A stretch of 60,228 nucleotides of DNA from Faecalibacter rhinopitheci. GTDB lineage: Bacteria; Bacteroidota; Bacteroidia; Flavobacteriales; Weeksellaceae. A program made the position numbers and the translations under genes. Each line of letters begins with the position of its first letter. Positions within the stretch are counted from its first letter, which is position 1. Shown here piece by piece: positions 533 through 15,816 of the stretch. The notes beneath the pieces are model-generated. The model was not told the DNA's origin and searched no databases. It worked only from the letters and a program-made list of their open reading frames with translations. The stretch lies in assembly GCF_015234135.1 (NCBI RefSeq), contig NZ_JADGIK010000010.1, positions 1-60,228 of the forward strand, written 5' to 3'.

Positions 533-800
533 AGGCCAAATTTAAAATTAGATAAATAGAAAAAGGCTCTTCAGTGGAAGGGCTTTTTTAATTAAAGTAA
601 ACCTAATTACTATTTTATATCTTAATTTTTGTCTTGACACAAAACATTTGAGATTAAGAGGAGAAGCCACGGTGTGGCTTAGGTATTTTAAACTTCTTTA
701 TCACTTTTTTCTTGATAAAAAAATAATCAAAAAGTCAAGGCTACAATTTGATATGTTCATTTTTGTCTTGACACAAAAACGAACCAAAAAAGTCAAGGCT

Positions 801-915
801 ACGATTTTCGACGGTCAATTATCATTTTGCTACACTAAAATGTTTAAATCGCTCCCGTTGGTCGGTAAACATTTTTGCGTTCCGCTTAATGAATTGACAC
901 TCGTCTGCTAATCGT
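801..915. repeat. Cruciform repeat unit, copy 3
   Basis: Inner arms AAAATGTTTA (837-846) and TAAACATTTT (866-875) enclose a 19-nt loop (847-865). Outer arms pair ACGATT with AATCGT and GTCAATT (814-820) with AATTGAC (892-898). The same lead-in as copy 2 precedes it at about 754-799. The right end reads CGTTAGGCC. No coding sequence is credible across it. Confidence 0.75.
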
Positions 916-920
916 TAGGC

Positions 921-1537
921 CGTTTTTAGAAAAACTAATTTTCTAAGTTTATACAAGATTAAAATAGTATAAGTAAATTTTTATCGCTTATCAAGCATTT
1001 TTTGTGTAGAACGAAAGCCCTGATCAGCATTGGTTGCTTTTGTTTTTCTGCTTTGTGAAAAACAGTTCTTAGCAACGAATGCTAGGGCTGGTTTGTGGAG
1101 TTTGGTGAATGAAACGCTTCGCTTAGTGATTAGAGTGGGGCTTGTCCCCCGTTAGCCCGCAGGTAACTATAATGCCACATTATGTAAACATAGCTTGGAT
1201 GGGGCGGCTGGTGACTCCTTGCTTGGGTATGTGTTGGATTGAGTTTTTTGCTTTTGTTGGTATTTGATTCTTATAAAACTTATTATTAATGGTTTTTATA
1301 AATCATCTTATTTCTCATTACACTTTTCTTTTCTAGTGCCACAAAAAAATAAAAGGATTCTTTTTGCTATTTGAACGCATAACTACCTGAATAATATAAC
1401 CAAATTAGTTTTTTATATTTACTATTATTTATTCTTATACACTTCTCTATTTTGTAGCCTTCCCTATTTTCAAACAGAAAATAAATATAACTAACTCTAT
1501 TTAAATAGGATGCACAAAACACGAATTATTCAATTTA
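921..1537. other. Gene-free segment with a GC-richer structured core
   Basis: I see no credible gene here. About 1010-1250 is noticeably richer in G and C than the rest of the window. It contains a nested stem-loop (1016-1089), a GGGG/CCCC hairpin (1137-1149) and a palindrome ATAATG-CCA-CATTAT (1169-1183). Bases 1260-1537 are ordinary AT-rich spacer. The core could be a structured RNA gene, a recombination site or mobile-element debris. Confidence 0.5.
1016..1089. other. Strong nested stem-loop of unknown role
   Basis: Three stems nest. AGCCCT (1016-1021) pairs with AGGGCT (1084-1089). After a GATC bulge, AGCATTGGTTGCT (1026-1038) pairs with AGCAACGAATGCT (1071-1083), 12 of 13 positions. TGTTTTTC (1041-1048) pairs with GAAAAACA (1057-1064) around an 8-nt loop. 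There is no T-run after it, so it is not a simple terminator. A weaker, partly similar sequence lies at about 5701-5760. RNA or DNA-level function cannot be told apart from sequence alone. Confidence 0.6.
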
Positions 1538-1573
1538 AATTTTATAGTAAATCACTATAAAATTATATCTTTG
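1538..1573 (+). promoter_or_regulatory. Probable operator and promoter of the DUF4007 gene
   Basis: A perfect 11-bp inverted repeat, AATTTTATAGT (1538-1548) and ACTATAAAATT (1554-1564), separated by 5 nt, directly precedes TATCTTTG (1566-1573), which fits the Bacteroidota -7 box TAnnTTTG. No clear -33 TTG is present; the inverted repeat sits where it would be, as expected for a repressor or activator site. A second perfect palindrome, GGAGGAATTCCTCC, lies in the leader at 1581-1594. Confidence 0.5.
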
Positions 1574-1621
1574 AGCTGTTGGAGGAATTCCTCCATTTAG
1601 ATTAAAGTTATTTTAATAAAG

Positions 1622-2482
1622 TTGAATTTGATGAATTATAGATTTTCAGGACACGATACATTTCATTGCAAACAGCAGTGGCTATTGAAGGGTTTTAACA
1701 ACCCTAACTTTTCTAATGTTTCAGAGAGTATTATCTCATTAGGAGTAGGTAAAAATATGGTATCTTCTGTAAAATATTGGTTAGAAGCTTTTGGTATTAC
1801 AAATGAAAACAATTTAACTGAATTTTCAAATTTAATTTTTTCTCCTGAAGAAGGTCTAGATCGTTATTTGGAAAATGAAGGAACTTTGTGGTTGCTTCAG
1901 TATAAATTATGCCAAAAAAAATATGCGAGTATCTTTCAATTATTATTTACAGAATATTTTGATGATAAAGTCAATTATGAATTTAGTGAAGATAAAGTAA
2001 TAAAGTTTATTCTAAACAAACTAGAAATTAACGGTGTAAAATCAATTAGTGAAAATACGTTATCAAATGATTTTAAAGTATTAACTCGCACCTATCTAAG
2101 TTCGTCAAAAGATATTAAAAACATTGAAGAGGAATTTAATGCTCCTCTTTTAGAATTAAATCTGATCGAAAAAATTGAAAGTCATAAATATATTTTAAAT
2201 AAAATCAATCGATCAATTCCTTTAGCAATTTTAGGTTATTGCATACTTGATATGACTCAAGAACAAAATAGTACAAGTTTAAAATTAGAAGAAATTAAAC
2301 GTACTATTGGAAACTATTTCTGTATCACAAATAAATGTTTAGAAGATTTGTTATCTCAATTAAATGAGATTTCAGATGTGTTTGTTTATACAGATCATGC
2401 AGGAACCGCAACTTTAGATATCAAGCAAAATACTATCGAATTAAGAGAAGAATTATTAAAAAAATACTACGATGCGAACTAA
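1622..2482 (+). CDS. DUF4007 family protein
   Basis: The 286-residue protein opens with the family signature FSGHDTFHC at residues 8-16, followed by a Trp/Leu-rich helix, which identifies DUF4007. I know this family mainly from defence loci, including ones with DNA-sulfur-modification genes, but its biochemical role is not established. The start could be residue 1 or Met4, which sits closer to the signature. There is no signal peptide or membrane segment, so it should be cytoplasmic. The stop overlaps the start of the next short ORF by 11 nt, implying a two-gene transcript. A palindromic operator-like site lies upstream. Confidence is good for the family and low for function. Confidence 0.8.
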   Translation: MNLMNYRFSGHDTFHCKQQWLLKGFNNPNFSNVSESIISLGVGKNMVSSVKYWLEAFGITNENNLTEFSNLIFSPEEGLDRYLENEGTLWLLQYKLCQKKYASIFQLLFTEYFDDKVNYEFSEDKVIKFILNKLEINGVKSISENTLSNDFKVLTRTYLSSSKDIKNIEEEFNAPLLELNLIEKIESHKYILNKINRSIPLAILGYCILDMTQEQNSTSLKLEEIKRTIGNYFCITNKCLEDLLSQLNEISDVFVYTDHAGTATLDIKQNTIELREELLKKYYDAN

Positions 2483-2657
2483 TATTTCAACAAACATTAT
2501 AAGAGACGAAAACAAGTCTTTAAATTATATTGTAACCAAAAATGCCGTTGAAATATTTAATAGCATTTTTAATCATTCGAATGAAAACCAAAATTCCTTT
2601 ACCATTATTGTAAATTATAAAAAAGAAAACATATGTTACTTTAGGGAGTTTAAATAA
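2472..2657 (+). pseudogene. Truncated ORF resembling the N-terminus of an ATPase
   Basis: This 61-codon ORF overlaps the DUF4007 stop by 11 nt, the layout of a translationally coupled partner. Its residues 42-48, NSFTIIV, followed by NY, resemble the strand that leads into a P-loop (SFTIIGxYGxGKSS type) of ATPases found next to DUF4007 genes. The P-loop itself is absent: after NY the sequence runs into KKENICYF and stops. I infer that the body of an ATPase gene was deleted, leaving a stub, perhaps joined to its own C-terminal tail. The family call rests on recollection of neighbourhood and motif, so it could also be an unrelated small protein. Confidence 0.45.
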
Positions 2658-2675
2658 TTTAGACATTAAAGAATA

Positions 2676-3536
2676 TTAATATTCTTTTTTACAAGGAATT
2701 ACTCCCCTGATTCCTCCTCTAGGGTTCGGAACATCTTCTTTATATCTTGGTATGATGTGAATATGAACGTGAGGAATCGTTTGTCCTGCTGTCTCTCCTA
2801 CATTAATTCCAATATTAAAACCATCAGGGTTGAATTTTTGTTGTAAAATTTCTTTAACTCGATTCACCACTATCCAACAAGCAATTTGTTCTCTACTTGT
2901 TAATTCAAAATAATCAGAAACTACTCTTTTGGGAACGATTAAAGCATGACCTTTAGAAACTGGAAATTTATCATAGAATGAAAAAACAGTGGCTGTTTCT
3001 ACGATTGGTTCTCTTTTTTCATCAATACTTAAAAATGGACTGATTGCTTCATTTCCTTGATGCAAATAAGTATAATGTTGAAATTCATAAATCTCACAAA
3101 AATCATTGACGAAAACTGATTTAAATGGCAGTTTAACGTTGGTTTGAAATGTTTGGATCTGATGCAATTTATGAGTTCTAAATCCTTGATATTTAACATC
3201 CCTTCTCACTGCAAAATAGGCTTTCCCTCCTATTTTAAGTCTTTCAGAAATATCCATTAAAACATTTACTTGCTCTTCAGATTCTAAAACATTTAAAACG
3301 TAAAAGCAAATAATAGTATCGTAATCATCTTCAAGATTTATCGGAAAATAGTGAGGGTCATAGCCACTAACATCATAACCTTTCATTTTTAAGACTTCAA
3401 CATCTTTACCAAATCCACAGCCGAAATCTAAGGTTTTACCTACAATAAGATTTTTATCCAACAATATTTTACAAGGAAATGAAATATATTTTCTCTCCTT
3501 CGCTGTTAAGTGGCTATATGGATTCGATTTACTCAT
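2676..3536 (-). CDS. Methyltransferase-HIT domain fusion protein
   Basis: A 286-residue two-domain protein. The N-terminal half is a class I SAM-dependent methyltransferase with the glycine loop DFGCGFGKD (37-45), an acidic GYDP after motif II and the strand LKIGGKAYF. The C-terminal half is a HIT (histidine triad) nucleotide hydrolase or transferase domain ending in HVHIHII with triad His256, His258 and His260, then NPRGGIRG. It overlaps the upstream HNH gene by 8 nt, so the two are co-translated. Pairing of a methyltransferase with a nucleotide-handling HIT domain suggests action on a nucleotide or nucleic-acid adduct, but the substrate is unknown. The gene converges with the DUF4007 pair, 18 bp apart. 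Confidence 0.8.
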   Translation of the reverse strand: MSKSNPYSHLTAKERKYISFPCKILLDKNLIVGKTLDFGCGFGKDVEVLKMKGYDVSGYDPHYFPINLEDDYDTIICFYVLNVLESEEQVNVLMDISERLKIGGKAYFAVRRDVKYQGFRTHKLHQIQTFQTNVKLPFKSVFVNDFCEIYEFQHYTYLHQGNEAISPFLSIDEKREPIVETATVFSFYDKFPVSKGHALIVPKRVVSDYFELTSREQIACWIVVNRVKEILQQKFNPDGFNIGINVGETAGQTIPHVHIHIIPRYKEDVPNPRGGIRGVIPCKKEY

Positions 3537-4572
3537 TTAGATATAAAAAACCATTGTTATTGGCAATTGTTAATAGTGGTTGAATTGTATTTTCAAACAG
3601 TACATCATCAAAAGCGGTAATTGTAGGAAAAATAGTTAAATATTCTTCAAGGAATTTATTGCTTGAATGCTTTTCTTTGTGAATATTAAAGGCAATTTTT
3701 TGCAAATTTTTAAACTGCGTAAAATACTTATCAAACTGTGGAAGTCTATCGCTTTTTGAAGAATTGAAAGACTTATCAATTGGTAATAAATTCCAAACTA
3801 AATCGTGAGAAACAAATGCATAAGGAACAAAGTGATCTAGTGCAAAGTTCTTTTCATTAAATACCAATCTTTTACCCGTAAAAATACAATCAATACTACC
3901 CAATTCATCAAAAACGATTTTCCAATAGTGGTTGGTTTGCTTTTGAAGGCTATTTCTTTGTGCTGGTTTAATTAATTTGTTGGAAATATCAGGTACATTT
4001 GGATTTCTATTTTGAAGAAACAACGTCAAATTCCAGTAACAAAAACTTTTCAATAATTTAGAATTTTGTTTTAGATATTCTATCCAATTAGTATTCATAA
4101 TGATTCTATCTTTAGATAAAGCATATAAAGATTGATTTTCAAAACTTTGCGATTTTTTATAAATATCCGTTTTCGTCTCCCCTTGAAACCATGGAGAAAG
4201 GAACCAATGCGGCACATTTTTATCAAAATGCTGAAGAATTTTCTTCGTTTCAGAATCAGTAGAATTAATTAACCTTTCTTGAACAATACTTTGTTTTTCA
4301 TCGATCGTTAGATTTTCAATATCTATCAACTTCAAAACAGCGTCTTCAAGTAAATCATGTTTCCCAAATGAAAGATGAAAATAATTAATGGTATACCAAG
4401 AATTACTAATCATTTTAGAGAAAATTTCTTTTTTTAGAATTTCTGTTTTCTCCTGTTCCACCAACTCCACAATTGCTAATAACCAATAAAATTTATAAGT
4501 CGCTGTTGTGTTATTAAACACTGCAGAAAGTAAATTTACCGGTAAATTTTGGGAATAAGGTAATTCTATCAT
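3529..4572 (-). CDS. HNH endonuclease domain protein
   Basis: A 347-residue cytoplasmic protein. Residues 229-275 hold an HNH nuclease core: a single Cys229 followed by TGK, the catalytic pair Asp246-His247 in LDHFVPYAF, then WNLLPID (260-266) and NSSKSDRLP (270-278), giving the His-Asn-Asn/Lys arrangement. The N-terminal 200 residues are helical and unlike classical restriction enzymes; the opening YSQNLPVNLLSAVFNNT looks like a family signature. The gene starts one base after the stop of the PLP protein gene and overlaps the methyltransferase-HIT gene by 8 nt, so all three form one transcript. A DNA-cleaving effector role is inferred from domain and context. Confidence 0.75.
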   Translation of the reverse strand: MIELPYSQNLPVNLLSAVFNNTTATYKFYWLLAIVELVEQEKTEILKKEIFSKMISNSWYTINYFHLSFGKHDLLEDAVLKLIDIENLTIDEKQSIVQERLINSTDSETKKILQHFDKNVPHWFLSPWFQGETKTDIYKKSQSFENQSLYALSKDRIIMNTNWIEYLKQNSKLLKSFCYWNLTLFLQNRNPNVPDISNKLIKPAQRNSLQKQTNHYWKIVFDELGSIDCIFTGKRLVFNEKNFALDHFVPYAFVSHDLVWNLLPIDKSFNSSKSDRLPQFDKYFTQFKNLQKIAFNIHKEKHSSNKFLEEYLTIFPTITAFDDVLFENTIQPLLTIANNNGFLYLNE

Positions 4573-4573
4573 T

Positions 4574-5542
4574 CTAAGCTGTTTTTAATGAAAAAATATT
4601 ATTCTCATCCTCGATAGACGATTCTACAAATACTGATGCATCTAAATTATTAATTTTAAGATTAATAATATTAAATAATCTTTGATTTAAATCACCAACT
4701 ATTAAAATATTATTTGTTTTCTCTATAAATTTTAATACAGTTTCCCATATTTCCTTATATACCTTTGCAGTTTTATCAATATATCTTTTAGCCAATTCAC
4801 ATGCTTTTCCTAATCCTATGATTAAAGGAGTGTTATATGTACCACCTCTATTGTCATTTTCTTGTGAACCACCATGAATTAATGGAGTTAACATCAAACC
4901 ATTTTTTACATATAAAAAACCTATACCTTTAGGCCCATTAATTTTATGAGCACTCATGCATAGCATATCAATATTTAATTCATTAACATCAATATCGACT
5001 TTACCAATAGCTTGAGTTGCATCACAAAAAAAACTTAAGTTATGTTTTTTAGCAATATCACCAATCAACTGAATATCTTGAATAACACCAGTTTCATTAT
5101 TTGCATACATGATTGCAATTAATGCAGTTTCTGGAGTAATAGAATTCTCTAGTTCATTTAAATCGATTAAACCATTTGAATCAACATCTAAATAAGTAAC
5201 CTCTATTCCTTTGGTTTCTAAATATTCACATGTTTTTAAAACAGCTTTATGCTCCGTTTTACAAGTTATTAGATGATTACCTCTTTCAAAATTTTCTTCA
5301 TAAAAACCTTTTAGAGCATAATTAATACTCTCTGTAGCACCAGAAGTAAAAATGATTTCTGAAGATTCAGCTTGAATGATTTCTGCACATAATTTACGTG
5401 CATTCTCTATCACTTTTTTAGTTTTTAACCCATCAAGATGATTACTTGATGCATTAAAATAATATTGATTAAAATAAGGCATCATTTCATTAAGCACTTC
5501 TTCATTAACTCTAGTGGTTGATGCGTTATCTAAATAAATCAT
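4574..5542 (-). CDS. Cysteine desulfurase-like PLP protein lacking the catalytic Cys
   Basis: This is a class V aminotransferase fold of the NifS/IscS type. It has the N-terminal YLDNASTT, the PLP-stacking TEHKA (His98), the PLP-nitrogen Asp174 in FCDATQAIGK, and Lys200 in SAHKINGPKG as Schiff-base lysine. It ends at residue 322 with FSLKTA. In IscS-type enzymes this strand leads into SSGSAC, whose Cys carries the persulfide; the stop falls where that Cys should be, so the active Cys and the C-terminal helix region are missing. The next gene begins one base later, so the short end looks built in rather than freshly broken. Desulfurase activity is doubtful; PLP binding is likely. DndA/IscS-type enzymes supply sulfur for DNA phosphorothioation. 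Confidence 0.75.
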   Translation of the reverse strand: MIYLDNASTTRVNEEVLNEMMPYFNQYYFNASSNHLDGLKTKKVIENARKLCAEIIQAESSEIIFTSGATESINYALKGFYEENFERGNHLITCKTEHKAVLKTCEYLETKGIEVTYLDVDSNGLIDLNELENSITPETALIAIMYANNETGVIQDIQLIGDIAKKHNLSFFCDATQAIGKVDIDVNELNIDMLCMSAHKINGPKGIGFLYVKNGLMLTPLIHGGSQENDNRGGTYNTPLIIGLGKACELAKRYIDKTAKVYKEIWETVLKFIEKTNNILIVGDLNQRLFNIINLKINNLDASVFVESSIEDENNIFSLKTA

Positions 5543-5551
5543 TAGGTTATT

Positions 5552-5568
5552 ATTTATAAGCTATAAAT
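5552..5568. promoter_or_regulatory. Palindrome upstream of the desulfurase-like/HNH/methyltransferase operon
   Basis: A perfect 7-bp inverted repeat, ATTTATA (5552-5558) and TATAAAT (5562-5568), with a 3-nt spacer lies 9 bp upstream of the operon's first ATG. Its half-site resembles the TTTATAGT/ACTATAAA arms upstream of the DUF4007 gene, so one regulator may serve both operons. AT-rich palindromes arise easily by chance in this genome. Confidence 0.35.
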
Positions 5569-5767
5569 ATACTATTATTACCTAATACTATTTTAAGGAA
5601 AACCATAATAACGGACAAATATAAACCAAACAAAGCCTTAAATATTTAAGTTAAATTTATCTATTTTTTTGATACTGCGTAAGTAATGTAAGTAAAAATC
5701 AGCAAAAACATTTTTTTGTTTTTTGAGTTTGTGAAAAAAAAGTTTTAAACGAAGAATAGCATGCAAT

Positions 5768-5790
5768 AAGGAGAACCAATGGTTCTCCTT
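5768..5790. terminator. Hairpin, possible terminator
   Basis: AAGGAGAACC (5768-5777) and GGTTCTCCTT (5781-5790) form a perfect 10-bp stem with an AAT loop. The following T content is modest, so termination is uncertain, and no gene clearly ends here. Confidence 0.35.
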
Positions 5791-6082
5791 TACTTTGATT
5801 TTAGCTTATGTTTCCAGTTTTTTATTTTGGCGATTTTACAATTTTCTTTTTTGTTAAAAATAAGTTACGGAAGTTACGGCGTGAAAAATAATGAAGTTTA
5901 AAGTAATTGAATGTAAATTTTGCTTGTTTGTGTTTTATCTTCCGTAAGATAATTTAGACTAAAATATAAGCCTTTTTTAAAGTAATATTTTAAACTATAA
6001 AGTACCTCATTTATTATATGTTCATTTTACTCATGAGTTTATTATTTTAAGAATAATGTATTCATGAATCCTTTGGATTTGG

Positions 6083-6236
6083 CTTGATCCAAAACGAACC
6101 AAAAAATCAAGGCTTCAATTCTCGACGGGTAATCATCATTTCGTTTTACTAAAATGTTTAAATCATTCCTTTCAGTCGGTAAACATTTTTGCGCTTCTCT
6201 CAATAGATTGACGCTCGTCTGCGAATTGTTATGCCA
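6083..6236. repeat. Lead-in segment and cruciform repeat unit, copy 4
   Basis: The lead-in (6083-6112) has inverted arms CTTGAT and ATCAAG; the left-edge copies instead have CTTGAC and GTCAAG, a compensated change. The cruciform unit follows, with outer arms CAATTC (6116-6121) and GAATTG (6223-6228) and inner arms AAAATGTTTA (6151-6160) and TAAACATTTT (6180-6189) around a 19-nt loop (6161-6179). The right end reads GTTATGCC. Orientation matches the left-edge copies, so the repeat family brackets the 1.6-5.5 kb island. Confidence 0.7.
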
Positions 6237-6542
6237 TTTTCATTAATTCATCTTCTAATAATTTAGACTCTTTTTGTACTTGATCATAATCTTTTTCCTT
6301 AACGGCATATACATAATTTTAACCGATTTATTGAATAATGAAATATATACTTTGTTTATATTTTATTTTTTTTTATAAAAAAGTGTAAAAAATCCCTTGT
6401 ATACATATGGAAAATATTTTTTCAATGAATTGCTCTACAGCTTTATCCAATTCGTCGTTGACGCTTTTAAAACAAAAAAAATTCTGCTCGGCAATCAATC
6501 CCAACAGAATTTTATTTTATTATTTTCTTGAAAAATTTGTGC

Positions 6543-6800
6543 TTAATCGTAATGAAAACGGCACTTTGCAATTAAAATTTGTTCCTCTTCGTATTTATAA
6601 ATTAAGCGATGTTCTTCATCTATTCTACATGACCAAAAACCTGAATATTTATGTTTTAATGGCTCTGGTTTGCCAATTCCCGTAAAAGGTGTACGTGAAA
6701 TATCTTTCAATAAATCATTGATTCGCTTTACTTTTTTCTTATCAGTTTTTTGCCAAAATAAATAATCTTCCCAAGACTCATCTACGAAAATATATTTCAT
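6543..6800 (-). CDS. yoeB: Txe/YoeB family toxin (ribosome-dependent mRNA interferase)
   Basis: The 85-residue protein matches the whole length of the YoeB/Txe branch of the RelE fold. It opens with YIFVDESWEDYLFWQKTD, continues through the basic helix KVKRINDLLKDI and GIGKPEPLKH, and ends with the catalytic tail CRFHYD. Family members cut mRNA in the ribosomal A site and are silenced by a YefM-type antitoxin. Its start directly abuts the stop of the antitoxin gene (no gap), as is usual for this pair. All expected terminal residues are present, so the toxin looks intact. The pair lies beside repeat-rich DNA, typical for accessory toxin-antitoxin modules. Confidence 0.9.
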   Translation of the reverse strand: MKYIFVDESWEDYLFWQKTDKKKVKRINDLLKDISRTPFTGIGKPEPLKHKYSGFWSCRIDEEHRLIYKYEEEQILIAKCRFHYD

Positions 6801-7055
6801 TTATTCCTCGATTAATTCTTTTTCAAAAGATTGATTACTTTTTAATTTTTCGATGGCTGAATCCAATCTTGATTCATTGATACGAGAAGATAGTTCGTAA
6901 TTAGTAGCCATTAATGAATTGTATTCTTCTAATGACATTACTACTATACCAGAATCTTTCCCTCTGTTGATGATTAAGGTTTCAAAATTCTTTGAAACTC
7001 TATCTAAATAAGATTTAATATCTTTTCTGAAGTCTGAAACACTTGCTATTAACAT
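6801..7055 (-). CDS. yefM: YefM/Phd family antitoxin
   Basis: Starting at the ATG at 7055 gives an 84-residue protein opening MLIASVSDFRKDIKSYLDRV, the usual N-terminal DNA-binding and dimerisation fold of Phd/YefM. A start at 7091 would add 12 residues not seen in the family and would run through the operator, so I reject it. The middle has GIVVMSLEEYNSL, and the C-terminal half is a charged helix expected to wrap the YoeB toxin. It precedes the toxin gene with no gap, the usual order in which antitoxin and complex autoregulate the operon. Confidence 0.88.
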   Translation of the reverse strand: MLIASVSDFRKDIKSYLDRVSKNFETLIINRGKDSGIVVMSLEEYNSLMATNYELSSRINESRLDSAIEKLKSNQSFEKELIEE

Positions 7056-7068
7056 AATCTTGTATTTT

Positions 7069-7094
7069 ATTATGTACAAAATTAAGTACAATAT
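7069..7094. promoter_or_regulatory. Probable YefM-YoeB operator
   Basis: TGTACA (7073-7078) and GTACAA (7086-7091) form inverted TGTAC/GTACA half-sites just upstream of the antitoxin start. Escherichia coli YefM is known to bind palindromes with a TGTACA core, so this is the expected autoregulatory site. Confidence 0.5.
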
Positions 7095-7099
7095 TTTGA

Positions 7100-7497
7100 T
7101 TTACAAAATCTATTTTAGGTAATGGTGTAATAATAAGTCAATGTTATTCAATATATTGGATTAAAATTAATTCATGAAATCAACAATGTACAATGTGTTA
7201 CTTTTATAAGCGGAGCAAAAAATAATAATTATTCTTTTAAGAAAGCTGGTCTATATTTTTATGAAAATGCTTTCTTAATTGTAGGATTTTTTAAAATTGT
7301 AAAACATAAATTATATAAATCTGCTTTTTTATTTCCGTCAATTTTACTTCAAAAAATATGATGTATCTCGCTCCTACATTGTCTATTAGATTAGAAAATT
7401 AAAATACTTAAAGAAGATACAAGAAGTAAGAAAAGAATGCTTACTACAGCTTTATTATGGGCAAAAAAATTACAAATAGATCTAACCCAACACTTTA
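7100..7497 (+). pseudogene. Possible decayed gene fragment
   Basis: Between the antitoxin and katG no intact gene is visible. One frame reads open from about 7139 to 7361 without an obvious ATG (it includes VTFISGAKNN and GLYFYENAFLIVGFFK). The same frame resumes after two stops as KILKEDTRSKKRMLTTALLW to about 7497. The pieces look protein-like but I recognise no family, and AT-rich spacer can give such frames by chance. Confidence 0.25.
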
Positions 7498-7546
7498 TTG
7501 TTTAGAAAACGTAATGTACTACATACTATAATTTTTGATTATGAAA

Positions 7547-7568
7547 AAAGGAGCCAAAAAGCTCCTTT
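7547..7568 (-). terminator. Terminator of katG
   Basis: AAAGGAGC (7547-7554) and GCTCCTTT (7561-7568) form an 8-bp stem; on the minus strand it is followed by a T run. It lies 30 bp past the katG stop. Confidence 0.75.
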
Positions 7569-7597
7569 ATTTTTATATCTCTTAATTTAATAACAGT

Positions 7598-9877
<2,280 letters not shown>

Positions 9878-10115
9878 TTAATTAGTTCTAATATCTATAA
9901 ATTAAATCAATTTTAAATCAATACTTAATTAATAAAATTGATAGCATGATAAGATTAATAACTTAGTCTTAAAAATCATATGATTAAGTTATGAATATTA
10001 AAATTAGTTTCAAAAAATATCATGTAACTCTTACAATTATTAGCAAAGAAATTACTTTCTATAAAATTGTAAAATTGTCTCTATAAATGATTAATTTTCA
10101 CAATAAACATTATAT

Positions 10116-11018
10116 ATGAATAAAAAATTACTATTTGTTTCTACATTATTTCTATTGATGACAGGAAATATCAAAGCACAATCTAAAATTTCTTTTGAGG
10201 AAGAAGAAAATTATTACTTAGGGTCTATAAAAACTCAGAATGGTTGGGAAATCTATTCGGATGTAGAAGATAATATTGAAATCCCTGAAATACTAGTTAC
10301 AAACGCGCAATTTACAGATGGTAAAAATTCTTTGAAAATAGAAACTAAAGATTCAAATATCTTTATAGGTGCTTTTAAAAACATTACAGCTTCTGCCGAG
10401 AAAATAAAGGTTTCTATGGATGTTTTTGTAGAGGATATATATAAAAATGGATATGGTTCTGAAATTATGTTAACTTTAATTGACCAGAATGACACGAATT
10501 TAGCAACTATAAATCTAGCTTTTGATAATACAGTATGGACAGGTAGCGGAAGTTATGTATATGAAGTAGAAGGTGTAACCTATGCGTCAAATTCATGGCT
10601 AACTATTTCCTATCAAATTGATTTTGAAAACTCTAATATTAATTTTTATTTAAACGATACCTATATATCTTCACAAGAAATAGAAATGGGTGCATCCTTA
10701 ACTGCACTTGATGTTTATATGTTTGATATGGGAACACAATTTTATGTAGATAATATTAGCATAGAAAGTTTGCTAGAAACTTCTAGTATTTCGTCTCAAC
10801 AAAAAAAGATTGAAATATTTCCTAATCCCGTATCAGATATTTTAAACATAAAAACAAAAGATGATATTAAAGTGATAGAAGTATATGATATATCGGGGAA
10901 AAAGCTAATTACTACAACAGATAAAGTTTTAAATGTTCATAGCTTACCTAAAGGGAGTTATGTTGTAAAAATTATAACTGATAAAGAAACAACTGTGAAA
11001 AAGTTCATTAAAAAATAA
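10116..11018 (+). CDS. Secreted protein with T9SS type A sorting domain
   Basis: Residues 1-22 form a signal peptide ending at IKAQ. The body (about 25-220) is beta-rich and resembles a jelly-roll, concanavalin-like domain, with paired segments such as FYLNDTYISSQ and DVYMFDMGTQFYVDNISI. The last ~70 residues are a type IX secretion sorting domain: IFPNPVSDILNI, then VYDISGKKL, then LPKGSYVVKI and a final KKFIKK. Such proteins cross the outer membrane through the T9SS and are released or anchored at the surface. The ligand or substrate is unknown. It is a single gene sharing a bidirectional terminator with aguA. Confidence 0.85.
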   Translation: MNKKLLFVSTLFLLMTGNIKAQSKISFEEEENYYLGSIKTQNGWEIYSDVEDNIEIPEILVTNAQFTDGKNSLKIETKDSNIFIGAFKNITASAEKIKVSMDVFVEDIYKNGYGSEIMLTLIDQNDTNLATINLAFDNTVWTGSGSYVYEVEGVTYASNSWLTISYQIDFENSNINFYLNDTYISSQEIEMGASLTALDVYMFDMGTQFYVDNISIESLLETSSISSQQKKIEIFPNPVSDILNIKTKDDIKVIEVYDISGKKLITTTDKVLNVHSLPKGSYVVKIITDKETTVKKFIKK

Positions 11019-11096
11019 TTTTATAGATAATCAACTTTTCAATATAGAATAAAAGTCCAGAATATTTTTTTGGATCTGATTTATTTAAATTTTAAT

Positions 11097-11130
11097 AAAA
11101 ATATCCGATACTAAAGTATCGGATATTTTT
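11097..11130. terminator. Bidirectional terminator
   Basis: A perfect 15-bp stem (11097-11111 with 11116-11130) has a TAAA loop and A/T runs on both sides. It sits between the convergent T9SS-cargo gene and aguA. Confidence 0.85.
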
Positions 11131-11134
11131 ATTA

Positions 11135-12196
11135 TTAAATTTTTGGTTCTTGTTGACTTAAACAGTGGAAAGATCCTAATCCCCAAATGATGTCCGTTGA
11201 ATCTATTCCAACGACTTGACGATCTGGGAAACATTTTTGGATGATTTCTAAAGCCACCTCATCTTTTGCACAACGATAAGTTGGGACAATCACCGATTTA
11301 TTGGCAATGTAGAAATTCGCATAAGACGCCGGTAAACGCTCGCCTTCGCAGTAAACGCCATCAGGCATTGGTAATTCGATAATATTTAACGAGCGACCAT
11401 CTTCCAATTTCATTTCTTGTAATTGACGAAGATTAACTTGTAATAACTCATAGTTATCATCATTTTCATCTTCTTCTACAACCGTTAAAACTGTATCTTC
11501 ATTCACGAAACGAATTGTATCATCGATATGACCATCCGTATCATCACCAACGATTCCGTCTTCCACCCAAAGAATTTGAGAAACACCATAGTAATTTCTT
11601 AAGAATTCTTCGATTTGTTGTTGCGAATAGTCTGGATTACGGTTCTCGTTTAATAAACATGATTTAGACGTCATCAATGTATTTTTTCCATTGAATTCGA
11701 CTGAACCACCTTCCATGATAATTCCTGGGTAGAAAACTGGAAGATTAAATGCTTCTCCAATTTTAGTTGGAATCACATCATCATTTTCGAATGGTGGATA
11801 TTTTCCTCCCCACGCATTGAATCCCCAATCCACAATTACTTTTTGATTTTCAGCATTTTCATTATTTACTAAGAAAGCTGGTCCGTGATCACGACACCAT
11901 GCATCATTAGTTTCGAAAAAGTAAAACTCGACTTGCGATAAATCAGCATCTGTTTTTTCGATGTACGATAAAGCAAAGGCTTTCATTTCCTCATCTTTTA
12001 CATTGATGCGAACTTTTTCACCTTTCGATAATTCAGCAATAAATTGTGCGTATGCTGGATAAATTAGGTGAATACGATCTGGCCAAGATTCCTCTTTATG
12101 AGGCCAAGATAACCACGTTGCTTCGTGTTCTTCCCATTCCGCAGGGAAACGGTATCCTAAATCTTTAGGAAATTTTGTTGTATCTAATGTGTTCAA
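11135..12196 (-). CDS. aguA: Agmatine deiminase
   Basis: A 353-residue enzyme converting agmatine to N-carbamoylputrescine and ammonia, the second-to-last step of the arginine-decarboxylase route to putrescine. It has the guanidine-modifying fold with substrate-binding GGSVEFNGK, catalytic acids and His in DDTDGHIDDTIRF, and nucleophile Cys345 in GSFHCLSQQEP near the C-terminus. It begins FPAEWEEHEATWLSWPH, typical of the family. It is the third gene of a minus-strand set with aguB, whose product uses its reaction product, but a metallo-beta-lactamase gene is interposed. Cytoplasmic; length is normal. Confidence 0.96.
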   Translation of the reverse strand: MNTLDTTKFPKDLGYRFPAEWEEHEATWLSWPHKEESWPDRIHLIYPAYAQFIAELSKGEKVRINVKDEEMKAFALSYIEKTDADLSQVEFYFFETNDAWCRDHGPAFLVNNENAENQKVIVDWGFNAWGGKYPPFENDDVIPTKIGEAFNLPVFYPGIIMEGGSVEFNGKNTLMTSKSCLLNENRNPDYSQQQIEEFLRNYYGVSQILWVEDGIVGDDTDGHIDDTIRFVNEDTVLTVVEEDENDDNYELLQVNLRQLQEMKLEDGRSLNIIELPMPDGVYCEGERLPASYANFYIANKSVIVPTYRCAKDEVALEIIQKCFPDRQVVGIDSTDIIWGLGSFHCLSQQEPKI

Positions 12197-12197
12197 T

Positions 12198-12938
12198 TTA
12201 ATTCTGTTTTAAAAGTTGTAAGGTATGTTCTAAATGACCTTGGGTTTTCCAATTATCGTGTCCAGCAATTACCAATTTAATTTTTGGATGGTGATGCATG
12301 ATTTTTTGAATTGTATTTAGCCAAGCGTTCACATCAGCTTCTCCAATATATCCTAAATCCGTAGCCTCAGTACTTTTTACTAAACAACCACCATTTAAGA
12401 TTTGATATTTCGGTAACCAAACTACCGTATTGTCAGCAGTATGTCCTTTTCCAAAATATTCAATAACGAAACGCTCACCTCCTATTTTATAGGTTTTCCC
12501 TAATTCAATTTCATGTGTTGCAACAGCTTTATTATTTGTTTTTAAAATCGCATTGGTTTCTTTTGTTGCATAAGTCGGAATTCCGATTTGATTGTAAAAA
12601 GCAAAACCTCCTGCGCGATCTTCGTGCGAATGAGATGCAAAAACTGCAATTACTGGTAAATGATGACGAAGTTGAATTGAATCTAAAATCGGTTGATATT
12701 GGGAGTTGTCCCAAGGCGTATCAAACAAAACAATTCCTTTTTTTGTAACTAAATACATGCCATTAGCCGCATATTGCTTGCCATTGAATGTATTAAAAGT
12801 GGTATGAACAAAAACCTTTGGATGAATCTGTTCAATGATTAAAGGTGCTCGTTGTGCATATAAAAATGTACTGAATAGGAAGAATATTCCTATCCAATAC
12901 ATTTTAAGATATTGTATGTTGAAATTAATCTTCATCAA
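12198..12938 (-). CDS. bla: Subclass B1 metallo-beta-lactamase (EBR/IND-like)
   Basis: A periplasmic zinc enzyme that hydrolyses beta-lactams, including carbapenems in related members. Ligands are complete: His103, His105 and Asp107 in SHSHEDRAGG, His166 in GKGHTADN, Cys185 in GGCLVKS and His227 in AGHDNW; Lys188 is the substrate-carboxylate lysine. GYIGEADVNAW is typical of the flavobacterial EBR/IND group. Opening at 12938 overlaps the aguB stop by 14 nt; starting at Met13 (12902) gives 234 residues with a compact signal peptide ending at LYAQ, equally plausible. It lies inside the aguB-aguA polyamine operon, so it is likely co-transcribed and chromosomal rather than cassette-borne. Assignment to EBR is inference. 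Confidence 0.92.
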   Translation of the reverse strand: MMKINFNIQYLKMYWIGIFFLFSTFLYAQRAPLIIEQIHPKVFVHTTFNTFNGKQYAANGMYLVTKKGIVLFDTPWDNSQYQPILDSIQLRHHLPVIAVFASHSHEDRAGGFAFYNQIGIPTYATKETNAILKTNNKAVATHEIELGKTYKIGGERFVIEYFGKGHTADNTVVWLPKYQILNGGCLVKSTEATDLGYIGEADVNAWLNTIQKIMHHHPKIKLVIAGHDNWKTQGHLEHTLQLLKQN

Positions 12939-13800
12939 TAAAACGCTTCGTAATCGGAGCGTATGTTTCGATACGACGATCTCTTAAGAAAGGCCAGTGC
13001 TTACGGAAATAATCAGATTCGTTTAAATCTAATTCAACCACTTCAGTTTCTTCCTTATCATGCGTTGCTAAATATAAAAGTTTCCCTTGTGCATTTGTTG
13101 CGAAAGAACCACCCCAAAATTTCATTGCACCATCTTGTTCAAAACCAACACGGTTCACTGAAATGACAGGAACACCATTGGCTACTGCATGTGAACGTTG
13201 TATCGTTTGCCAAGCGTTGTATTGATCTTGGTTTGTTTCTTCGTCTTGCGTAGTATCCCAACCAATAGCAGTTGGGTAGAATAAAATATCAGCACCCATT
13301 AATGCTGTAATACGAGAAGCTTCTGGATACCATTGATCCCAACAAATTAAAACACCCACTTTACCAAACTTCGTATTGAATACTTTGTATCCTAAATCAC
13401 CTGGTGTAAAGTAGAATTTTTCGTAGAATGCTGGATCATCTGGAATGTGCATTTTGCGGTATTTTCCTAGATACTCACCATCAGCATCTAAAATTGCTGT
13501 TGTATTATGGTATAACCCTTGTGCACGTTTTTCGAATAAAGAGGCTATAATTACAACTCCTAATTCTTTTGCTACGACAGATAGGGCATCTGTTGATGGT
13601 CCAGGAATAGCTTCTGCTAAATCGAAGTTATCGTAATCTTCGACATCACAAAAATATAATGATGTAAATAATTCTTGTAAACATACGATTTGAGCTCCTT
13701 TCGCTGCTGCTACTCTTACTTGCTCTATCGCTTTATTTAAATTTTCTTGTTTGTCCTTAGTACAAGTCATTTGTACCATTCCAACTTTAACTTTTGCCAT
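12925..13800 (-). CDS. aguB: N-carbamoylputrescine amidase
   Basis: A 291-residue nitrilase-superfamily hydrolase that turns N-carbamoylputrescine into putrescine, ammonia and carbon dioxide. The Glu-Lys-Cys triad is visible as Glu43 in LQELF, Lys116 in KYRKMHIPDD and nucleophile Cys153 in GVLICWDQWYPE. The family marker HAVANGVPVISVNRVG and the C-terminal RRIETY are present. It is the first gene of the operon with the metallo-beta-lactamase and aguA; all three are tightly packed. A -7-like box lies about 38 bp upstream. Cytoplasmic. Confidence 0.95.
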   Translation of the reverse strand: MAKVKVGMVQMTCTKDKQENLNKAIEQVRVAAAKGAQIVCLQELFTSLYFCDVEDYDNFDLAEAIPGPSTDALSVVAKELGVVIIASLFEKRAQGLYHNTTAILDADGEYLGKYRKMHIPDDPAFYEKFYFTPGDLGYKVFNTKFGKVGVLICWDQWYPEASRITALMGADILFYPTAIGWDTTQDEETNQDQYNAWQTIQRSHAVANGVPVISVNRVGFEQDGAMKFWGGSFATNAQGKLLYLATHDKEETEVVELDLNESDYFRKHWPFLRDRRIETYAPITKRFIDED

Positions 13801-13837
13801 TAACGAAAACTTATAGGATTGATTTAAATATAAAGTA

Positions 13838-13845
13838 CAAAAATA
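13838..13845 (-). promoter_or_regulatory. Probable -7 box of the aguB-bla-aguA operon
   Basis: On the minus strand this reads TATTTTTG, matching TAnnTTTG, 38 bp before the aguB ATG. No convincing -33 TTG was found at the usual distance. Confidence 0.4.
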
Positions 13846-14046
13846 GTGATATTCTTTAATATTAAATACAACAAAAATTTTAATTGCGAGGTTAAAATCT
13901 TGCTGATAATTCTTTAAAAACGATAAAAAATCGGAATTAAATCCATTTAAAATCTATAATTTAAGATAATATTAAGTTTTATTTCTTAATGTTTCAATTG
14001 AAATTGAATAATTTAGCCCTCAGTTTGAAAAAATTAAAAATTAATA

Positions 14047-14736
14047 ATGAGAAATTTAATACTAACATTATCACTTTTAGGCAGTTCTTATCTGATGGCT
14101 CAAACTGAAGCTACTTTCATATCTAATAATTCTTTACCTAGCTCTGGTGTGTCTGTAATAGAATCTGAGAAAACGGAAACCATTACAGAAACAACTGAAG
14201 TTAAGAAAATCACTTATCACGATCATGTTTTTGAGGCACAGTCATTTAACATTCCTATCATTGAAAATAATGAACAAATGGATTCGTTGATATTAGCTAA
14301 TCAACTTATACCAGTACCCGAAGATGGCGAAGGGTATATGATTCAAAAATTAACCCATAGTAGAGCATTCTTAAATCAGGATGCATTTTTACTTCTAAAA
14401 GATATTTCTAATCAATTTTATGCAGAAACTAATCATAAGCTAAGCATATCATCACTCACTAGAACTATTGAAAGTCAAAATAAATTGAGAAGAGTTAATA
14501 GTAATGCTACAAAAGGCGAAAGTTCTCATAGCTACGGTGCTTCTTTTGATATATCATATTCTAAATACGGTGAAAAATCAGGAAGAAATTATGCTAATGA
14601 ACGAGTGGTGCAAGCATTACTGGATCGGTTAGTAGAAGAAGGTAAAATTTATTATATAAAAGAACGAAGACAACCTTGCTTTCATGTAACTGTAAGAAAT
14701 ACAAAAATAGATTTCAAAAATATGGTGAAATCCTAA
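14047..14736 (+). CDS. Secreted DUF5715 family protein, M15-peptidase-like (copy 1)
   Basis: A 229-residue exported protein with a signal peptide ending near SYLMAQ. The C-terminal ~150 residues resemble zinc D-Ala-D-Ala-type carboxypeptidases (the LAS/M15 fold): SSLTRT, then SSHSYGASFDIS with the metal-ligand spacing H-x(6)-D, and a final His in CFHVTVRN. The fold suggests trimming of peptidoglycan peptides in the periplasm, but DUF5715 members are not well characterised. A paralog follows at 14843 in the same orientation after a terminator. Residues 20-90 are a variable, Thr/Glu-rich linker absent from the second copy. Confidence 0.75.
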   Translation: MRNLILTLSLLGSSYLMAQTEATFISNNSLPSSGVSVIESEKTETITETTEVKKITYHDHVFEAQSFNIPIIENNEQMDSLILANQLIPVPEDGEGYMIQKLTHSRAFLNQDAFLLLKDISNQFYAETNHKLSISSLTRTIESQNKLRRVNSNATKGESSHSYGASFDISYSKYGEKSGRNYANERVVQALLDRLVEEGKIYYIKERRQPCFHVTVRNTKIDFKNMVKS

Positions 14737-14741
14737 ACTCT

Positions 14742-14764
14742 AAATCCTACAAAATGTAGGATTT
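14742..14764 (+). terminator. Terminator between the two DUF5715 genes
   Basis: AAATCCTAC (14742-14750) and GTAGGATTT (14756-14764) form a stem, followed by a T run. Confidence 0.75.
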
Positions 14765-14830
14765 TTTTTGTATTTTAAAATTTAGAATAAAAATATTGTC
14801 AAAATTATACCCTATAAAAGGCTAGAAACT

Positions 14831-14838
14831 TATTTTTG
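14831..14838 (+). promoter_or_regulatory. Probable -7 box of the second DUF5715 gene
   Basis: TATTTTTG followed by C fits the flavobacterial -7 consensus, only 4 nt before the ATG at 14843. The resulting transcript would be nearly leaderless. A terminator upstream supports a separate promoter. Confidence 0.4.
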
Positions 14839-14842
14839 CATC

Positions 14843-15430
14843 ATGCTTAGGAATACATTTTACACATTAATACTATTTGTATCAGGAACTAGTATAACTT
14901 TTTCGCAAGGAAGAAAAGTAATTCCTCCTACTGCCGAATATATAAAACATTTAGAAGCAGCAAAATCTCATGGTACTACACTTATAAAAGATAAAAAACA
15001 ACTTGATAAATATGTTTCTAAAGGAAAATTAGTCTCTGTAAAACAACGAGGTTATGGGTTTAGAGTAACAGATTTAACACATAGTCATCGCTATTTAACT
15101 CCTAGAGCAAATCAAACTTTGAGAGATATAGCACGTGAATTTGTGAAAACAACAGGGCAAAATTTCTTTGTAGTAACTTCCCTTACTCGCACATTACATG
15201 ATCAAGATCGATTAAGAGGTGTCAATGGAAATGCATCATCTAATGACAGTGCGCATAATTATGGGGCATCTTTCGACATATCTTATATCCGATTTAATCA
15301 TAAAATAGGTCAAAATTCTAAACTTGATAGAGATCTTAACAATATTTTAAAATCTTTTCAAAATTCAGGACGAATATATTATGTAAAAGAGAAACAAAGT
15401 AGTTGCTACCATATTGTAGTTCGTCGCTAA
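14843..15430 (+). CDS. Secreted DUF5715 family protein, M15-peptidase-like (copy 2)
   Basis: A 195-residue paralog of the preceding gene. Signal peptide 1-21 ends at TFSQ. It keeps the same block: LTHSHRYLTPRANQTLRDIA, TSLTRTLHDQDRLRG, SAHNYGASFDIS with the H-x(6)-D metal-ligand spacing, and CYHIVVRR with the last His. All putative zinc ligands are intact in both copies, so neither looks dead. It lacks the long Thr/Glu-rich linker of copy 1. Periplasmic peptidoglycan peptidase activity is inferred from the fold. Tandem location with separate regulatory signals suggests duplication followed by regulatory divergence. Confidence 0.75.
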   Translation: MLRNTFYTLILFVSGTSITFSQGRKVIPPTAEYIKHLEAAKSHGTTLIKDKKQLDKYVSKGKLVSVKQRGYGFRVTDLTHSHRYLTPRANQTLRDIAREFVKTTGQNFFVVTSLTRTLHDQDRLRGVNGNASSNDSAHNYGASFDISYIRFNHKIGQNSKLDRDLNNILKSFQNSGRIYYVKEKQSSCYHIVVRR

Positions 15431-15465
15431 AATTTGTATTTTTCGATAGCCAATTTTATGTACGT

Positions 15466-15816
15466 ATGAATATTGAAGAATTAAGAGAATTTTGTTTGAG
15501 TTTACCATTTGTGGAAGAAAAGTTTCCATTTGACCAAACAACATTGGTCATCTATATTGCAGGTAAAATGTTTTGTTTAACTGACATTAGAGAATTTAAT
15601 CGTGTAAATGTTAAATGTGATCCAAGTAATGCAATCGATTTTAGAGAAAACTACCAAGCTGTGTTACCAGGCTATCATATGAATAAGAAACATTGGAACA
15701 CAATTATAATCAACCAAGATGCAAAGGATGCATTAATTTATCAATGGATTAAAGATTCTTATAATTTAGTTATACTTACGCTTCCCAAATCAAAAAGACC
15801 AAATTTAATCTTATAA
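15466..15816 (+). CDS. MmcQ/YjbR family protein
   Basis: A 116-residue small cytoplasmic protein of the MmcQ/YjbR (CyaY-like, double-wing DNA-binding) family. Visible family features are the opening LREFCLSLPFVEEKFPF, the central KMFCLTDI, the CDP segment and the end HMNKKHWNTI with WIKDSYNLV. The ATG at 15466 gives the family length; an upstream start at 15403 would add 21 residues that overlap the preceding gene, so I reject it. Function is not established for the family. It is followed by a strong terminator. Confidence 0.85.
   Translation: MNIEELREFCLSLPFVEEKFPFDQTTLVIYIAGKMFCLTDIREFNRVNVKCDPSNAIDFRENYQAVLPGYHMNKKHWNTIIINQDAKDALIYQWIKDSYNLVILTLPKSKRPNLIL

Follow-up and report, generated by a model that had tools for sequence, protein, structure and literature searches.

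The stretch of DNA analysed here, referred to as the window, comprises 60,228 nucleotides of Faecalibacter rhinopitheci (assembly GCF_015234135.1) and starts at the first base of contig NZ_JADGIK010000010.1; the genome is 2.89 Mb in size and 99.99% complete. Positions 1,538 to 5,568 hold a small island in which an HNH endonuclease gene and a gene for a methyltransferase-HIT fusion protein (MTase-HIT) stand intact inside a wrecked SspABCD phosphorothioate (PT) modification locus (Table 1). The coordinates of the open reading frames (ORFs) place five genes in two convergent units 18 bp apart, the genes of the three-gene unit being packed with 1-nt and overlapping spacing, as an earlier reading made from the letters alone (the sequence-only reading) had described. 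Matches to Pfam and PADLOC profiles upheld the identities it had given to the DUF4007, desulfurase-like, HNH and methyltransferase-HIT proteins, and its tie to sulfur-based DNA modification is borne out by matches to the profiles of SspB, SspA and the start of SspC.

Table 1. Features of the island and its borders (positions in the window).
Feature	Position	Strand	Remarks
Intergenic repeat, left copy	760..930	+	Bounds the island
sspB (DUF4007)	1622/1631..2482	+	Uninterrupted ORF; Pfam DUF4007 8.2e-65; PADLOC SspB 5.3e-82
sspC relic, 61-aa ORF	2472..2657	+	Overlaps the DUF4007 ORF by 11 nt
MTase-HIT fusion, 286 aa	2676..3536	-	Pfam HIT 2.8e-23 and class-I methyltransferase (Methyltransf_23 1.3e-7)
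HNH endonuclease, 347 aa	3529..4572	-	Pfam HNH_4 3.1e-9; 8-nt overlap with MTase-HIT
sspA relic (SspA/DndA-type cysteine desulfurase), 322 aa	4574..5542	-	Aminotran_5 2.3e-73; 1 nt ahead of HNH
Intergenic repeat, right copy	6078..6240	+	81% identical to left copy

The sspC relic matched positions 1-40 only of the 1039-position SspC profile (PADLOC, 6.9e-7). Positions 1559-2618 were 93.6% identical to the intact sspBCD genes of another genome from this genus (G073), after which similarity ended; position 2618 is codon 49 of sspC, just ahead of the Walker A motif, and the intact SspC of G073 runs on past this breakpoint into G-N-Y-G-T-G-K-S-T. The stub had been called ATPase-like, a description that does not hold for a fragment which comprises SspC codons 1-49 and ends ahead of the P-loop. 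The product of sspB is likewise 93.6% identical to SspB of G073, with nonsynonymous (dN) and synonymous (dS) divergence of 0.032 and 0.233 (dN/dS ~0.14), a ratio that mostly reflects the period before truncation. The desulfurase was correctly assigned to the SspA/DndA-type family (PADLOC SspA 7.5e-122, DndA 1.3e-121), but the alignment stops ahead of the cysteine loop present in two full-length relatives and the catalytic-cysteine region is gone. The missing DndC/SspD partner was confirmed: no PF01507 (PAPS_reduct) protein, and with it no SspD or DndC-type PP-loop sulfurtransferase, was found anywhere in the genome by a search that was positive in 14/14 control genomes. The best DndD score in the genome was 20.8 bits against a cut-off of 245.85. 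The absence of PF01507 and the DndD score rule out a functional Ssp or Dnd system, and the SspC stub, the cysteine-less SspA and the lack of SspD identify the locus as a wreck. Decay has gone further in the two closest relatives, where pieces of sspA are deleted and, in one, sspB too.

A scan with the methyltransferase domain over genome contigs of 84,980 species yielded 308 relatives, of which the best 80 were kept. The HIT domain continued from the methyltransferase domain at all 80 loci. An HNH gene lay immediately upstream on the same strand at 56/56 non-cyanobacterial loci (classified by title) and at 0/24 cyanobacterial loci, and in 55 of the 56 the two genes overlapped or were separated by at most 10 nt. 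The HNH-MTase-HIT pair is a widespread module, common in Bacteroidota, and recurs above chance. Its other neighbours vary. A pyridoxal-phosphate (PLP) gene directly adjoined the pair at one of the 56 loci (L083) in addition to the window, which rules it out as a regular third component; the co-occurrence expected by the sequence-only reading holds for HNH with MTase-HIT and fails for the PLP gene. No published description of HNH-MTase-HIT was found in the open-licence literature, judged partly from passages and not whole texts, and PADLOC holds no model for the pair, so the match to an already described system that had been named as a refutation did not emerge.

An HNH homologue was found nowhere in the genome for 22 of the 24 cyanobacterial loci. 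The H-x-H-x-H triad of the HIT domain was whole in 43/43 Bacteroidota-type rows of an alignment (A2), and its middle histidine was replaced in 7/7 cyanobacterial rows. Given the loss of this histidine, the cyanobacterial version is probably a different kind of protein; at loci such as L066, L092 and L120, the replaced histidine and the lack of an HNH neighbour perhaps reflect a different, non-hydrolytic use.

HNH genes accompanied by a HIT gene without the methyltransferase domain were found at L019, L188 and the plasmid loci L122, L123, L124 and L126, the plasmid HNHs scoring 4e-13 to 1e-18 against the profile of the family. Eight plasmid HIT matches were inspected; a homologous HNH adjoined in these four plasmid loci and not in the other four. 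Among 50,697 phage records there were one HNH match, 21 HIT-type matches and no MTase-HIT fusion; in Streptomyces phage phiSASD1 (L129, 5066-6393) a HIT gene directly follows a PAPS-reductase-family gene. IMG/VR yielded two HNH and three methyltransferase-domain loci, with the pair in the flank of none. One of its contigs, putatively viral (L194), carries near its end (9-638) an HNH 62% identical to that of the window, with no MTase-HIT within 6 kb after it.

Remains of ssp genes, or stray ssp genes, occurred at ten further HNH-MTase-HIT loci. Pieces of sspA and sspB were present in Weeksella (L041, identical to L016), and sspB pieces at L043 and L077 (5' pieces in both) and in one genome represented by two contigs (L189/L178). 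At L033 sspB was accompanied by an sspC cut at 224 aa, and at L182 by an sspC cut at 673 aa directly ahead of HNH. An sspD gene followed the pair at L044, and L056 carried an sspB piece and sspD, then the pair. At L083 a cysteine-less sspA, 59% identical to the relic of the window, directly preceded HNH. The order at L078, 5' sspB fragment - HNH - MTase-HIT - sspD, supports the earlier statement that the pair stands where PT genes once stood. In none of the ten flanks were sspB, full sspC and sspD found together. Weak matches resembling sspA at L049 (26%) and sspD at L081 (25%) were rejected as relics and excluded from the count. At L017, HNH is accompanied by a piece of sspA but not by MTase-HIT, and hence the partner of HNH can be lost. 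In a comparison of the window with Weeksella L016, identity per 60-nt step was about 92-100% for the pair, against 83-85% for the sspA remnants and 62-93% for the sspB remnants. The pair has therefore moved or recombined later than its flanks. The L033 island (2892-15786) is dense, holding SspB, the cut SspC, a P-loop kinase, PDC-M11A/B, HNH, MTase-HIT, a PbeA-like helicase and a PbeC/LmuB-like ATPase.

Members of the HNH family are accompanied by genes for PT modification (ssp or dnd) or else by a neighbouring HIT or MTase-HIT gene, and the choice between these two partners is near-exclusive. In order to sample HNH independently of MTase-HIT, 395 Bacteroidota genomes were searched with the HNH alignment. 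Matches were obtained in 25, of which 19 were examined; the other six (G766, G788, G808, G837, G912 and G935) matched over part of the protein only. MTase-HIT adjoined HNH in 15 of the 19, HIT alone in one, and neither in three. In these three, sspA-B-C-D adjoined HNH (G811), dndC-dndD adjoined HNH with dndC above and dndD just below the cut-off (G664), or dndC-D-E lay away from HNH with dndC and dndD above the cut-off (G297). The HNH nearest to that of the window (79%) is found in G073, which has no HIT and carries sspBCD 20-30 kb off. The contrast thus extends within the genus: the window genome has MTase-HIT and no PT genes, whereas G073 has intact sspBCD and no MTase-HIT. PT genes were therefore present in 4/4 Bacteroidota genomes having HNH without HIT (G811, G664, G297 and G073), compared with 1/65 genomes having an intact HNH with HIT or MTase-HIT, as searched with DUF4007 and DndD after removal of duplicates and of three broken or short HNHs. 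The Fisher p of 5.8e-6 is nominal, as the lineages are related, many are metagenome-assembled genomes and PT was judged by two families. In the genomes with a broken or short HNH, DndD was found in G580 and not in G064 or G566. The background of DUF4007 was 5/148 genomes of the order, the window genome included. No HNH or MTase-HIT was present within the 20 kb read at six intact ssp loci (L139-L144).

On plasmids, 16 HNH records represented 13 distinct replicons. The fetched flank contained ssp genes in 6/13 and HIT or MTase-HIT in 0/13. The gene order was DUF4007 - SspC-like - HNH - SspD on a plasmid of Cyanobacterium HL-69 and HNH - sspA - sspB - sspC - sspD on one of Hymenobacter yonginensis.

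The HNH protein consists of a helical, winged-helix-like N-terminal domain with an invariant T-Y-K and a C-terminal Cas9-like HNH domain, in which H247 and N270 are invariant (catalytic H and N kept in 46/46). A Pfam scan found neither DUF262 nor an NTPase motif, and the only PADLOC match was a partial one to Cas9-HNH (0.0015). Two HNH subtypes occur among the 56 loci (39 and 17); what they share is chiefly the HNH core plus the T-Y-K stretch. Mapped onto the MTase-HIT tree, the subtype label changes 12 times, eight of them forced by well-supported branches. At L067 and L036, from one genus-level group, the MTase-HIT proteins are 86.6% identical and the HNHs align over the HNH core only (29%).

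MTase-HIT comprises a class-I S-adenosylmethionine-dependent methyltransferase domain followed by a HIT domain, and both the H-x-H-x-H triad and the fold of the HIT superfamily are present. DPPY/NPPY and PC-type motifs are the general catalytic motifs of restriction-modification DNA-base methyltransferases; neither these nor a target-recognition domain were found in MTase-HIT, which reads D-T-I-I-C-F-Y-V-L-N-V at the corresponding strand, and the best fold matches of the domain were small-molecule methyltransferases. Its N-terminal ~80 residues match TIGR04096 (dnd_rel_methyl), a PT-associated putative methyltransferase, at 2.1e-15 (NCBIfam; 56.5 bits, far under the cut-off of 150 bits). Full-length TIGR04096 genes occur in ssp plasmids of cyanobacteria, where they adjoin sspA (L013, 14999-17071; L130, 11478-13544); MTase-HIT, at 286 aa, differs in having a HIT domain in place of the C-terminal part. 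PADLOC returned no full-length match, only the HIT domain of ThsC (3.2e-10). The HIT enzyme HINT1 is reported to convert dGMPS to dGMP and H2S (PMC8775712), and a HIT protein has been proposed as the off-switch for a nucleotide signal in type II Thoeris (PMC8565338). These precedents make nucleotide processing by HIT or MTase-HIT plausible.

Several known systems resemble the island in part. With SspABCD-SspE and SspABCD-SspFGH it shares a recognisable SspA, SspB and beginning of SspC, and intact ssp relatives exist in the same genus (L139) and at family level (L141-L144), but the window lacks SspC, SspD and the SspA active site, and its nuclease is an HNH_4 protein where SspE is DUF262-DUF1524. 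The IscS-DndBCDE-DndI system likewise couples an HNH effector to PT (PMC11662687), and the present family adjoins dndC-dndD in G664. As described there, DndI has DUF262, a DUF1524 HNH and ATPase activity, unlike the window HNH with its Pfam profile free of DUF262 and NTPase motifs. The PT-dependent enzymes ScoMcrA, SprMcrA and EcoWI, which combine a sulfur-binding domain (SBD) with HNH, are similarly small, with an N-terminal winged-helix-like domain containing Y-K, often Y-P, and a C-terminal HNH. The window HNH is instead of the Cas9-type HNH_4 class without a sequence-profile match to SBD (a sequence-level test, short of a comparison with an SBD-family profile, gave no support), and its family sits with PT genes, not away from them. 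Type II Thoeris also has a HIT protein, ThsC, in a defence operon (PMC8565338), but there are no TIR or ThsA genes here, the partner is an HNH nuclease and similarity to ThsC is limited to the HIT domain.

On balance, these data favour reading HNH as a PT-linked effector, with a HIT or MTase-HIT protein having taken the place of its PT partner, the island being the wreck of an SspABCD locus plus a mobile two-gene module. HNH would be the DNA-cutting effector, as the sequence-only reading had also supposed. In hosts carrying PT, the marks or the PT enzymes may restrain or license it, by analogy with what the literature describes for DndI and SspE; where PT is absent, this task would fall to the HIT or MTase-HIT protein. 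Since one MTase-HIT lineage repeatedly swaps HNH subtypes, the protein probably acts on a generic target, such as a nucleotide signal, an adenylated or end-modified product (HIT enzymes act on adenylated molecules too) or a non-sequence-specific mark, and is probably neither a site-matched methylase nor a tailor-made antitoxin. The HIT domain would be the minimal partner, because HNH with HIT and no methyltransferase domain also exists. As HNH is found with PT genes or with HIT and rarely with both, a HIT protein may stand in for sulfur marks on DNA. The fuller proposal, that HIT or MTase-HIT functionally replaces PT, the effector having repeatedly left PT systems whose genes then decayed in place, is tentative and falls short of even odds; the HIT nucleotide hydrolase would then serve as self-protection or off-switch for HNH. 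If true, the system would resemble restriction, but with control of self and non-self handed over by a mark on the DNA to an enzyme that processes nucleotides. It yields a testable claim, that the role of PT for HNH can be filled by a HIT or MTase-HIT protein, and bears on how PT-linked effectors spare their host.

A number of observations weigh against this interpretation. Neither ssp nor HIT was present in the flank read for 7/13 HNH plasmids. One genome (G582/L106) combines an intact HNH-MTase-HIT pair with an intact sspABCD elsewhere, and the PT genes of L017, where HNH lacks MTase-HIT, lie 20-30 kb away and are non-adjacent. PT status in this sample of related lineages, with many metagenome-assembled genomes, was taken from SspB/DUF4007 and DndD, and a DndD below the NCBIfam cut-off was not scored as PT, except in G664, where DndC was above it. 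The enzyme activity, toxicity and anti-phage role of HNH and MTase-HIT are themselves inferred.

The same arrangement could arise under type IV, PT-dependent restriction. HNH would then cut incoming PT-marked DNA and be incompatible with live ssp genes, hence their breakage nearby, and HIT would remove sulfur from the released PT nucleotides; we regard this as unlikely. Somewhat less probable again is a selfish toxin-antidote cassette, with HNH a genome-cutting toxin, MTase-HIT its antidote and insertion into ssp loci incidental. Such a cassette would fit the tight overlap of the two genes, the 97% identity that the module keeps between two genera whose flanks have diverged further, and the three of 56 loci at which MTase-HIT is intact and its HNH is broken (L041, L100) or short (L075) (the reverse, 0/56, follows from the design of the scan). 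It is at odds with the intact HNHs without MTase-HIT at L017 and L174 and leaves the ssp/dnd link unexplained; moreover, toxin and antidote usually vary together, yet HNH subtypes swap at least eight times against MTase-HIT.

The compact system envisaged by the sequence-only reading, in which DUF4007, the PLP protein, HNH and MTase-HIT act jointly in a new pathway that is based on sulfur and dispenses with DndC, is very improbable. SspB and the 322-aa SspA piece are both intact ORFs, L083 repeats the cysteine-less SspA ahead of HNH, and the sspB dN/dS would suit a gene in use, but that ratio stems mostly from the time preceding truncation. SspC without a P-loop, SspA without its catalytic-cysteine region and a genome without a PP-loop sulfurtransferase argue against it, as do the loss of sspA and sspB first among relatives and the otherwise varied neighbours of the pair. 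The earlier observation is confirmed and its interpretation supported in part. Interest lies in the HNH-MTase-HIT module and in how it exchanges with phosphorothioation: an uncharacterised nuclease-HIT module tied to PT defence by gene order and near-exclusive partner choice.

The two repeats around the island are direct copies, and matches to them number 53 genome-wide, ~13 of them long. A search for tandem repeats gave none. Just past the right copy lies a YoeB toxin and Phd-YefM antitoxin pair (6543-7061, minus strand); a YefM/YoeB pair likewise comes after sspD on a Geminocystis ssp plasmid (L134). At the start of the contig, the block 1-300 recurs identically at 410-709 (300 nt, shifted by 409 nt).

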